NCBI GenBank assembly: GCA_022560615.1
Contig: JADFSR010000029.1
Location: 1-54,408, forward strand
Origin: Gemmatimonadota bacterium
Lineage (GTDB): Bacteria; Gemmatimonadota; Gemmatimonadetes; Longimicrobiales; Gaopeijiaceae
DNA: 54,408 bases
Direction: 5' to 3'
Shown: positions 20,382 through 23,809 of the stretch, one piece after another
Numbering within the stretch: the stretch's first letter is position 1
How the letters are laid out: each line of letters starts with the position of its first letter
Made by a program: the position numbers and the translations under genes
The notes under the pieces: generated by a model
Seen by the model: only the letters and a program-made list of their open reading frames with translations
What the model was told of the DNA's origin: nothing
The model's database searches: none

Positions 20382-22304
20382 TCAACCGAGCGCCCTCGTC
20401 TCGACCTCACCGACCACTAGGGCGATGAACTGCTCGCGGCCCATGACCTCCTGCTTCTTTCCCGCGCCCCGCCGGCGGACCGCGACCGTGCCGTCCGCGG
20501 CCTCCCGCTCCCCGACCACGCCCATGTATGGGATCTTGAGGGTCTCGGCTTCCCGAATTCGGTAGCCGAGCGTCTCCCGCCCCTCCACCGACGCCCGAAT
20601 CCCGGCCGACTTTAAGTCGGCCACTAGGGAGCGGGCGCTCTCGTCCCAGTGCTCGCCGACCGGGAGAACTCGCACCTGTTCCGGTGCTATCCAGGTCGGA
20701 AACGCGCCGGCGTAGTGTTCGATCAGGCCACCCACGAAGCGCTCCATCGAGCCGAGCAACGTGCGGTGGATGACGACCGCCTTGTGCGGCGTATTGTCGG
20801 ACCCGATGTACTCCAGGCCGAAGCGTTCCGGCATCTGGAAGTCGAGCTGGAACGTACCTCCTTGCCACTCACGCCCGATCGCGTCCACGACGTTGACGTC
20901 GATCTTGGGACCGTAGAAGGCGCCACCGCCCTCGTCGACCTGGTACTCCACACCGCGCCCGTCGAGCACGCCACGCAGCGTCTCCGTGGCCTCGTCGTAG
21001 ACCGCCGGGTCCCCGATCGCCTTCTCCGGCCGGGTCGCGAGCGCCAGACGGTATTCGTAGCCGAAGATCTTCAGCAAATAGTCCGCCAAGTCCAGCAAGC
21101 TGTCGTACTCGTCCGCGATCTGGTCCGGTCGAACGAAGATGTGGGCATCGTCCTGAGTGAAGCAGCGCACGCGAAACATGCCGTGCAATGTGCCGGACCG
21201 CTCATAGCGGTAGCACGTGCCGAGCTCTGCGAATCGGAGCGGCAGGTCGCGGTACGAGCGCGTCTGGGTCTTGTAGATCATGAAGTGATGCGGGCAGTTC
21301 ATCGGCTTCATGCGGAAGCGCGTGCCCTCATCGTCCATCGCCGGGAACATGTTCTCCTCGAAGACCTCGAGGTGCCCGCTGATCTTGTACAACTCCTCGC
21401 TCGCGATCTGCGGCGTATACACGAGGTCGTACCCGTGCCGCAGAAGCGTCGTCTTGAGGAACTCCTCGATGGTGTGCCGGATGATCGCGCCCTTGGGGTG
21501 CCAGAGCACCAAGCCCTGCCCCACCACCTCCTGGATGGAGAACAGGTCGAGCTCTTTGCCAAGCACACGGTGATCCCGCTTCTTCGCCTCTTCGAGACGC
21601 TGCAAGTGCTCTTCGAGGGCGGCCTTCTTGTGGAACGCGGTGCCGTAGATGCGCTGCAGCATCTGGCGCTTCTCGTCGCCTCTCCAATACGCGCCCGCGC
21701 CCGAAAGCAGCTTGAAGTGCTCCAGCTTCCCCGTGGTCGGCACGTGCGGACCCTTGCACAGGTCGAGGAACGGACCGTTCTCGTAGACCGTGATCACTTC
21801 GTCGGCGTCGAACTCCTCGAGACGCTCGAGCTTGAGCGGGTCGTCGCTGAACAGCTCGCGCGCCTCGTCTTTGGAGACACGTCTGCGCGAAAAGGGCTGA
21901 TCTGCCGCTGTGATCTCCCCCATCTTCTTCTCGAATTCCTCGAGATCTTCGGGCGTAAACGGCGCATCGACCTCGAAGTCGTAGTAGAAACCGTCGTCGA
22001 TCGCCGGGCCGAATCCGATGCCCGCTCCGGGACGCAGCTCGCGCACCGCCGTAGCGAGGATGTGCGCCGCCGAGTGCCTCAGGACGGCCAGGGACTCTGG
22101 GCTCTTCTCGGTGAGGATCGATATCTCAGCATCCTCTTCGATGGGCTCCGCGAGCCCGACGGTCTCGCCGTTGACGACCGCCGCGAGCGCCGCCGTGGCG
22201 AGACCTGGACCGATGGACGCCGCTACGTCGCCGGCCGTGGAACCGCGATCCATTTCGAGGACGTCGCCGTTGGGAAGCGTGATCCGGATCTGTTCGCTGG
22301 ACAT
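20382..22304 (-). CDS. thrS: Threonyl-tRNA synthetase
   Basis: Charges tRNA-Thr and edits mischarged Ser. 640 aa from ATG 22304, preceded by GAAGGA. Order: TGS domain (1-62), editing domain with HSAAHILATA (HxxxH) and DLCKGPH (Cys/His ligands), class II core with the zinc-site MNCPHH, motif 2 RYERSGTLHGMFRVRCFTQD and the HRTLLGSMERFVG motif, then the anticodon-binding domain from about 540 (VRVLPVGEH). Full length, all key residues present. Its 200-nt leader encodes a Thr-rich peptide followed by a terminator, implying repression when charged tRNA-Thr is plentiful. Confidence 0.97.
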   Translation of the reverse strand: MSSEQIRITLPNGDVLEMDRGSTAGDVAASIGPGLATAALAAVVNGETVGLAEPIEEDAEISILTEKSPESLAVLRHSAAHILATAVRELRPGAGIGFGPAIDDGFYYDFEVDAPFTPEDLEEFEKKMGEITAADQPFSRRRVSKDEARELFSDDPLKLERLEEFDADEVITVYENGPFLDLCKGPHVPTTGKLEHFKLLSGAGAYWRGDEKRQMLQRIYGTAFHKKAALEEHLQRLEEAKKRDHRVLGKELDLFSIQEVVGQGLVLWHPKGAIIRHTIEEFLKTTLLRHGYDLVYTPQIASEELYKISGHLEVFEENMFPAMDDEGTRFRMKPMNCPHHFMIYKTQTRSYRDLPLRFAELGTCYRYERSGTLHGMFRVRCFTQDDAHIFVRPDQIADEYDSLLDLADYLLKIFGYEYRLALATRPEKAIGDPAVYDEATETLRGVLDGRGVEYQVDEGGGAFYGPKIDVNVVDAIGREWQGGTFQLDFQMPERFGLEYIGSDNTPHKAVVIHRTLLGSMERFVGGLIEHYAGAFPTWIAPEQVRVLPVGEHWDESARSLVADLKSAGIRASVEGRETLGYRIREAETLKIPYMGVVGEREAADGTVAVRRRGAGKKQEVMGREQFIALVVGEVETRALG

Positions 22305-22361
22305 TAGGTTCCTTCTTTGCTTGTGGTTCCGAGTTACGAATCTCGGGCGCCAGCAAGAAAG

Positions 22362-22396
22362 AAAAAAGCGCGGCGCCCGTTGGTCGGGGCCGCGCT
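22362..22396 (-). terminator. Intrinsic terminator (attenuator) in the thrS leader
   Basis: Minus-strand AGCGCGGC-CCCG, loop ACCAA, CGGG-C-GCCGCGCT: a 12-bp stem with one bulged C, followed by six T (22367-22362). It lies 22 nt after the leader-peptide stop and 57 nt before the thrS ATG. Its left arm also belongs to the antiterminator pairing described separately. Confidence 0.9.
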
Positions 22397-22440
22397 CTGC
22401 GTCTGGATTCGATTCAGGTCAATCGACGCACGCCGCCCCG
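22385..22440 (-). promoter_or_regulatory. Antiterminator pairing of the thrS attenuator
   Basis: Minus 22440-22425 (CGGGGC...TGCGTC) is complementary to minus 22403-22385 (GACGCA...GCCCCG): two 6-bp helices around an internal loop. The 3' strand contains the left arm of the terminator (22396-22385), so the two structures exclude each other. A third hairpin, GGGCCGG-ATTGT-CGGCCC (22458-22441), directly follows the Thr codons and could disrupt the antiterminator when the ribosome has moved on. The three-state model is inference; the complementarities are read directly. Confidence 0.7.
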
Positions 22441-22496
22441 GGGCCGACAATCCGGCCCGTAGTAGTGGTCGTGGTGGCCGTACTCCGTGCGTGCAT
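22419..22496 (-). CDS. Threonine-rich leader peptide of thrS
   Basis: ATG 22496 to TGA 22419 encodes 25 residues: MHARSTATTTTTTG followed by RIVGPGAACVD. Seven of residues 6-13 are Thr (ACG, then ACC ACG ACC ACT ACT ACG after one Ala), a run at 22481-22458. AGGAG stands 11 nt upstream of the ATG. A stalled ribosome on the Thr codons would cover the hairpin that follows and let the antiterminator form. This is the same logic as the thr, his and pheM leaders of enterobacteria. The peptide itself probably has no other role. Confidence 0.85.
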   Translation of the reverse strand: MHARSTATTTTTTGRIVGPGAACVD

Positions 22497-22531
22497 GGAC
22501 GCCGCGTCTCCTGATCAATCGAGGTGGCCGA

Positions 22532-22564: not shown

Positions 22565-23809
22565 TCACACCCCACCCGGACCGCTCCGGAGCCGATAGCG
22601 CACAATGTAGCTGACGTCCAATTCGTCAGTGATGACACCCCACATATCTTCGCCCACGATGGCGCGCACTGCCAGGTCCGCCGGGGTAACCGCTCGGCCA
22701 ACCGGCTCGAGCCCCGAGTCGAAGATCCACCACTCCCGGTCCCCGCTTCCGAGCGAGTTGCGCCGGAGCCAGATGTCGCCGTTGTTCGCGATCACCATCT
22801 GGTCGACCGGGGGAAGGAACTGGGGGGCGTACGTCGCTTCACGCACGCGCGCCTGGATCGCCCCCAGCGCCAGGCCCGGGTCTCGCCGGCTCATGAAGCT
22901 GTGCATGCCCGCGGCTCGTGCGTCCGCGGTACTGTCGACGACCGAGGGCGGAAGACGCTCGGTCTCGTATCGGGTGGCATGGTCGATCAACGTGTCACCC
23001 CCCAGCCCGATGAGTGTGAGCCGCAACGTGCCCGGACCCTGCCCTTCGTGAGCGCGCCTGTCTACGACGAGGTAGCCGTGCTCCGTCATGGCGCTCAGTG
23101 GCCCGTCCCCGAATGGCTGCGGACCGAACGAGCCTCCTGGGCGGTCCTCGTTGAGCAGCGCGAGAACGTCCGTAGTGCGGTGCGGGCGCATCCAAACGCG
23201 GGCCAACGTCACCCCCGACGCGTCCGTATGGACCACCGGTGTGCCCGTGAGCTCCCCGGTCGCCATCTCTTGGGACCACGCCGGAGACTGCCCCAGCATG
23301 GTACCATCGCGAAGCGGCCTCTCGGGCCGTGGCGGGGCTACGGGATGGTCTTCCGCGCTGCCCAGGTCCACGCGAGGCGTGACGGACCCCAGGAAAGCGC
23401 CGTCGAGGTCGAAGTAACTCACGCGGTACGCCCGCCCGTCCATCACCCAGAGCGAGTCACCGAAGAAGCCCACGGCGCGGGGCGAGATGAACTCCCCCGG
23501 GCCCTCACCCTCGCGGCCTACGCTACCTGCAGCGTCGCCGTCGCGCGTCCAACGACGAATCGGGACTTCGCCAAAGTGCCTCGAGTAGACCAGGCCGTCC
23601 GGACCGACGTCGAGTCCTTGCACGACGCCGAACGCATACACCGAGTCATCGACGGAGCCGATGGTCACGAGGGGGCCTTCAACAGTCCAGAGCGCGACAT
23701 CGAACGGATCGTCGGAGACGTCTTCAGTGTCCGTCCCAACGCAGCTGCCCAGTGACAGGGGAAGCCAAGTGAGTAGCGCCACCCGGACCCTCCTCCCGGG
23801 CCCCTTCAT
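22565..23809 (-). CDS. Six-bladed beta-propeller lipoprotein-like protein
   Basis: 414 aa. N-terminus MKGPGRRVRVALLTWLPLSLGSC reads as a lipoprotein signal with lipobox LGSC. The mature part has the 6-bladed/NHL propeller signature common in Bacteroidota and Gemmatimonadota: VVQGLDVGPDGLVYSRHFGE, IRRWTRDGDAAGSVGREGEGPGEFISP, SLWVMDGRAYRVSYFDLDGAFLG, and a late blade DQMVIANNGDIWLRR. The substrate is unknown. Its ATG overlaps the upstream serine-hydrolase stop (ATGA, 23806-23809), so the two are probably co-translated. Confidence 0.8.
   Translation of the reverse strand: MKGPGRRVRVALLTWLPLSLGSCVGTDTEDVSDDPFDVALWTVEGPLVTIGSVDDSVYAFGVVQGLDVGPDGLVYSRHFGEVPIRRWTRDGDAAGSVGREGEGPGEFISPRAVGFFGDSLWVMDGRAYRVSYFDLDGAFLGSVTPRVDLGSAEDHPVAPPRPERPLRDGTMLGQSPAWSQEMATGELTGTPVVHTDASGVTLARVWMRPHRTTDVLALLNEDRPGGSFGPQPFGDGPLSAMTEHGYLVVDRRAHEGQGPGTLRLTLIGLGGDTLIDHATRYETERLPPSVVDSTADARAAGMHSFMSRRDPGLALGAIQARVREATYAPQFLPPVDQMVIANNGDIWLRRNSLGSGDREWWIFDSGLEPVGRAVTPADLAVRAIVGEDMWGVITDELDVSYIVRYRLRSGPGGV

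Follow-up and report, generated by a model that had tools for sequence, protein, structure and literature searches.

The leader of thrS, the gene encoding threonyl-tRNA synthetase (ThrRS), in the window (the whole stretch of 54,408 nucleotides analyzed here, from a bacterium of the phylum Gemmatimonadota) very probably acts as a ribosome-mediated transcription attenuator of the his, thr and pheST type, which would raise ThrRS in response to a shortage of Thr-tRNA(Thr). The anatomy of the leader can be read directly off the minus strand, where a Shine-Dalgarno-like site, a Thr-rich ORF, a set of hairpins and thrS follow one another. The Shine-Dalgarno-like AGGAG (22512-22508), which is present in several relatives too, is followed 11 nt downstream by the ATG (22496) of a 25-codon leader-peptide ORF (22496-22419; MHARSTATTTTTTGRIVGPGAACVD and a stop codon), in which Thr occupies seven of the eight codons from 6 to 13 (22481-22458); a ribosome site and a stretch of codons cognate to the downstream gene thus come together in it. 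The Thr run overlaps at its end with the first hairpin, 1:2 (GGGCCGG-AUUG-UCGGCCC, 22458-22441), so that strand 1 coincides with regulatory codons, and the stop codon is located inside strand 2. In the computed antiterminator, 2:3 (22440-22385), positions 22440-22417 are paired with 22411-22385; its 5′ strand lies in the end of the ORF and includes the stop codon, and its 3′ strand is the 5′ arm of an intrinsic terminator, 3:4 (GCGCGGCCCCG-ACCAA-CGGG.C.GCCGCGC, 22395-22368; approximately −25 kcal/mol). Antiterminator and terminator are therefore mutually exclusive, and the latter runs into a U tract of six T (22367-22362). The gene behind it (20382..22304, minus strand, ATG at 22304) encodes a product of 640 amino acids, which NCBIfam TIGR00418 and Pfam domains identify as a genuine threonyl-tRNA synthetase. 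A preliminary description of this DNA had reported the Thr-rich ORF of 25 codons, its ribosome site and the exclusive pairings before thrS, and these are confirmed on the minus strand; a promoter-like site upstream of the leader, comprised of TTGACG (22560-22555), a 17-nt spacer and CATCGT (22537-22532), fits the attenuator reading that it had proposed.

To judge from this promoter motif, RNA polymerase would start near 22525, and a ribosome would translate the ORF while the leader is being transcribed. If Thr-tRNA(Thr) were scarce, the ribosome would stall in the Thr run and cover strand 1, whereupon strand 2 would pair with strand 3; this antiterminator would preclude the terminator, and thrS would be transcribed. 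If charging were ample, the ribosome would proceed to the stop codon in strand 2, the 3:4 helix would form and transcription would end at the U tract, at 22362. Without translation of the ORF, hairpins 1:2 and 3:4 are both predicted to form, and transcription would end as well.

Comparison with related genomes provides the main evidence for this mechanism. The order provided 154 genomes in which thrS could be located, and for most of these the sequence upstream of the gene was read. A Thr-rich leader ORF precedes the gene in 24 genomes, which belong to 14 genera and to all three families of the order, and a clear U-tract terminator, with stems of −12 to −37 kcal/mol, is present in 23 of these 24 members. 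Across 168 thrS upstream regions, a short ORF with at least five Thr in eight codons was found 22 times in the sense orientation and once in the antisense orientation. The 177 Thr codons of 23 members comprise 86 ACC, 61 ACG, 27 ACT and 3 ACA, and the third position varies freely. In addition, 22 of the 24 members have TTGAC in the 100 nt that precede the leader ORF (1.2 expected by shuffling), with 17 nt between TTGAC and CATC[GC]T in most members of one family (f1); a generic sigma-70 scan made no call at the promoter-like site. These data bear on an alternative in which the hairpin would do no more than terminate the upstream gene (22565-23809), with the ACN run as a functionless simple repeat. 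That gene is indeed encoded on the same strand and ends approximately 170 nt before the hairpin, but Thr coding has been kept despite the variable third positions, a covarying hairpin lies within the leader ORF, a conserved promoter-like site separates the upstream gene from the leader, and the ORF and hairpin recur as a unit before thrS in many genera, all of which makes this alternative extremely improbable. Runs of six Thr codons are rare, with about ten sites across the 4.5-Mb genome, and only that of the thrS leader sits within a short ORF that a terminator follows; the others were rejected as leaders, being inside larger genes, in other frames or without a terminator.

The folding z-score of the leader by itself is modest (−1.9, raw), and the evidence for the structures thus comes from comparison and not from stability. 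In hairpin 1:2, 92.9% of the cells are paired and five of the seven pairs have changed on both sides; none of 500 shuffles reached as good a covariation score, and sliding destroys the signal. In the terminator helix, 96% of the cells are paired and three pairs show double changes (18 sequences). Because a MAFFT alignment over the three families is in error downstream of the stop codon, these structural counts were taken from family f1 only, and pairing 2:3 was assessed by swapping strands among genomes. Cognate strands outperform swapped ones both in 2:3 (0 of 20000 permutations overall, 430 of 20000 within f1) and in 3:4 (0 of 20000 overall, 0 within f1); within f1 alone, the sequences suggest only weak coadaptation of strands 2 and 3. 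When a ribosome was modeled at the last Thr codon in 23 members, the RNA preceding strand 4 folded as the antiterminator in nearly all of them; in L168, no antiterminator formed in this position, but one does form when the ribosome is placed at the first Thr codon. A ribosome at the stop codon abolishes the antiterminator and leaves the terminator in place. For L001, as an example, the antiterminator before strand 4 amounts to −30.6 kcal/mol when the ribosome halts at the last Thr, as against −3.2 kcal/mol when it has reached the stop codon. A stalled ribosome does not keep the full-length fold from preferring the terminator; since thermodynamics alone favors termination, a kinetic switch is required, as is the case for known attenuators. 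Another reading takes the leader as a device for translational coupling or reinitiation at thrS instead of a transcription attenuator. A translated short ORF upstream could help initiation, as has been proposed for leader ORFs generally (PMC4833913), but the stop codon of the ORF is approximately 115 nt from the thrS start, a strong terminator intervenes, and conservation falls on the features that serve control of termination, which leaves coupling very improbable.

The attenuator is not a general property of thrS in these bacteria. The element is missing before thrS in most genomes of the order, 40 upstream regions of thrS sampled in other orders of the class contain no Thr-rich ORF, and in 48 further upstream regions, most of them from other phyla, the sole Thr-run leader (L038) belongs to a Gemmatimonadetes record. 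In several relatives without the element, thrS starts directly behind another gene, which suggests that the element has probably been gained or lost by lineage. The preliminary description had taken relatives that keep thrS without the element as a point against attenuation, and many such relatives do exist; on the other hand, this pattern probably reflects gain and loss by lineage, and the conserved form of the element where it is present is not explained by chance. The attenuator reading is likewise supported in that related leaders keep their Thr codons and their stems covary. Two small genomes, G094 (L381) and G097 (L294), have kept the terminator before thrS and lost the Thr-run ORF, and other hairpin sequences precede the terminator there. 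Several genomes of one genus (g3) have a thrS that is only about 50% identical to that of the window and is a second copy in some of them (L251-L257); the upstream regions of these divergent copies contain no Thr leader. At its own cut-offs, Rfam reports only two tRNAs in the window, and no Pfam family matched the leader peptides. The T-box covariance model (RF00230) gave no match in the window, and no T-box was found in 39 relatives, including the genome of the window, under a search that gave matches in 5 of 14 control genomes, a result that also favors the attenuator reading.

When the order and the phylum were searched with a covariance model built on the thrS leader, leaders for other amino acids emerged, each before a gene that fits its amino acid; these genes were named by NCBIfam. 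The genome of the window itself contains a His-run leader with a terminator before hisG (L306, MKNMIHVAHHHHHAALAGCGGLVRT; G000:C58:1000-1144, minus strand), and His-run leaders also precede hisG at L321-L324, L326, L328, L329, L331, L337, L340, L342-L371 and L382-L401. At E 0.01, a model built on the His leaders matched 170 of 395 genomes in the phylum; in 20 sampled matches from other orders, nearly all have His-rich ORFs and most precede hisG. Thr or Thr/Ile leaders, comparable to E. coli thrL, are found before aspartokinase genes and thrB, encoding homoserine kinase (L297, L298, L301, L327, L330, L332, L341, L295). Phe/Tyr-rich ORFs are located before aroF (DAHP synthase; L300, L325), Phe-containing ORFs before pheA (prephenate dehydratase; L333, L380), an Ile-containing ORF before cimA (citramalate synthase; L373) and a Tyr-containing ORF before phhA (phenylalanine 4-monooxygenase; L398), the last of which would be an unusual gene for a Tyr leader. 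Sixteen further leaders were tested. A terminator was identified by rule in 12 of them, nine of which have a 2:3 pairing that beats at least 98% of shuffles; the rule found no terminator in the hisG leader of G251 or the thrA leader of G132, the pheA leader of G084 and the phhA leader of G263 were not placed by the script, and the 2:3 pairing of the hisG leader of G334 was not above shuffled sequence. Some weak matches, L338, L339, L375, L376 and L378 among them, were rejected as plain terminators behind genes. Taken together, these sequences suggest that leader-peptide attenuation is used widely in the phylum, on many amino-acid operons, and the recurrence of the architecture with a fitting amino acid speaks for attenuation at thrS as well.

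A second layer of control may be added to the attenuator. Between the U tract and thrS, a candidate ThrRS operator hairpin (CCGAG-AUUCGUAA-CUCGG, 22346-22329, minus strand) occupies positions −42 to −25 of thrS, and its UUCGUA loop contains the Thr anticodon CGU; the hairpin computed for E. coli thrS spans −42 to −22 and has the loop UUCGUGU. The E. coli enzyme binds its own operator and represses translation (PMC6542539; PMC3858243), and ThrRS in the lineage of the window might similarly repress its own translation through a mimic of the anticodon arm. The position of the candidate, close to that of the E. coli operator, and a predicted outer stem that covers the thrS ribosome site in the genome of the window (G000) are in favor of such an arrangement, as is the occurrence of Thr-anticodon-type loops in seven upstream regions, where 1.25 are expected and control triplets give 0-1. 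However, four of the seven carriers are close relatives with nearly identical sequence, most attenuator-bearing genomes have no such loop, and the loop consists of eight nucleotides instead of seven. Two-layer control is thus a tentative possibility, and an unlikely one. It would also be tempting to regard the leader as two sensors stacked within 200 nt, in which the attenuator would respond to the charging of Thr-tRNA and the anticodon-mimic operator to free ThrRS, the whole forming part of a phylum-wide attenuator network, but this fuller picture is doubtful.

Downstream of thrS, infC, rpmI, rplT, pheS and pheT are encoded on the same strand. A strong terminator (GGCCCGAGACCTGTCTCGGGCC TTTTTTT; window 20190-20060, minus strand) lies between thrS and infC, and the segment upstream of it recurs before infC in relatives. 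This region is perhaps an attenuator of the infC/L20 type; it matched no Rfam family at its cut-off. The apparent start codon of infC, which encodes IF3, is an ATC behind GGAGGT (window approximately 20036, minus strand), as it also is in the relatives L006, L008, L009, L010, L013 and L030, and resembles the rare start codons that infC is known to use in other bacteria.

The mechanism proposed for the thrS leader is a classic one. The enterobacterial systems thrL-thrABC, hisL, pheL and pheM-pheST, the last of which is an example of leader-peptide attenuation for an aminoacyl-tRNA synthetase, share with it an ORF rich in the cognate codons, alternative pairings, a U-tract terminator and a downstream gene concerned with the same amino acid. 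By contrast, the leader described here would control thrS, belongs to another phylum and has no significant sequence match to them: in a permissive search, the Rfam Thr_leader model (RF00506) scored 17.6 bits at 22359-22492, against a cut-off of 55. thrS itself is otherwise known for translational autocontrol in E. coli or for T-boxes in Firmicutes. The E. coli operator resembles the present leader in belonging to the same gene and in having a UUCGU-loop hairpin equally far from the start codon, but it works by binding of ThrRS and control of translation, and contains neither a Thr leader ORF nor a terminator. The T-box before thrS in Firmicutes likewise senses the charging of Thr-tRNA and can control premature termination, whereas T-boxes have no leader ORF and were not found in the Gemmatimonadota relatives searched.

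A survey by Lopatovskaya in 2010, which lay outside the literature searched here, reportedly compared attenuators on aminoacyl-tRNA genes. Full-text searches found no paper that joins Gemmatimonadota with leader-peptide attenuation, and no solid earlier description of a comparable attenuator for this gene and phylum. The preliminary description had called the element undescribed; this stands to that extent, but a weak thrS candidate from Streptomyces has been published (PMC8079986). This thrL of Streptomyces lividans is also a short ORF with Thr codons before thrS, although it has only two such codons and no clear terminator, and the same study lists trpS, leuS and alaS leaders (PMC8079986). 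In Bacilli, hisS is preceded by His leader peptides (PMC2965389), another case of a leader on a synthetase gene outside Proteobacteria, which differs in the amino acid and the phylum, and actinobacterial trpS and leuS attenuators have been published; synthetase attenuators thus occur outside Proteobacteria. The leader described here therefore adds to a known kind of system, leader-peptide attenuation, a thrS member with comparatively good support, in a phylum that appears to employ attenuators on many amino-acid operons and whose tested genomes lack T-boxes. It would provide a clear example of how different phyla use different RNA devices for one and the same control problem.
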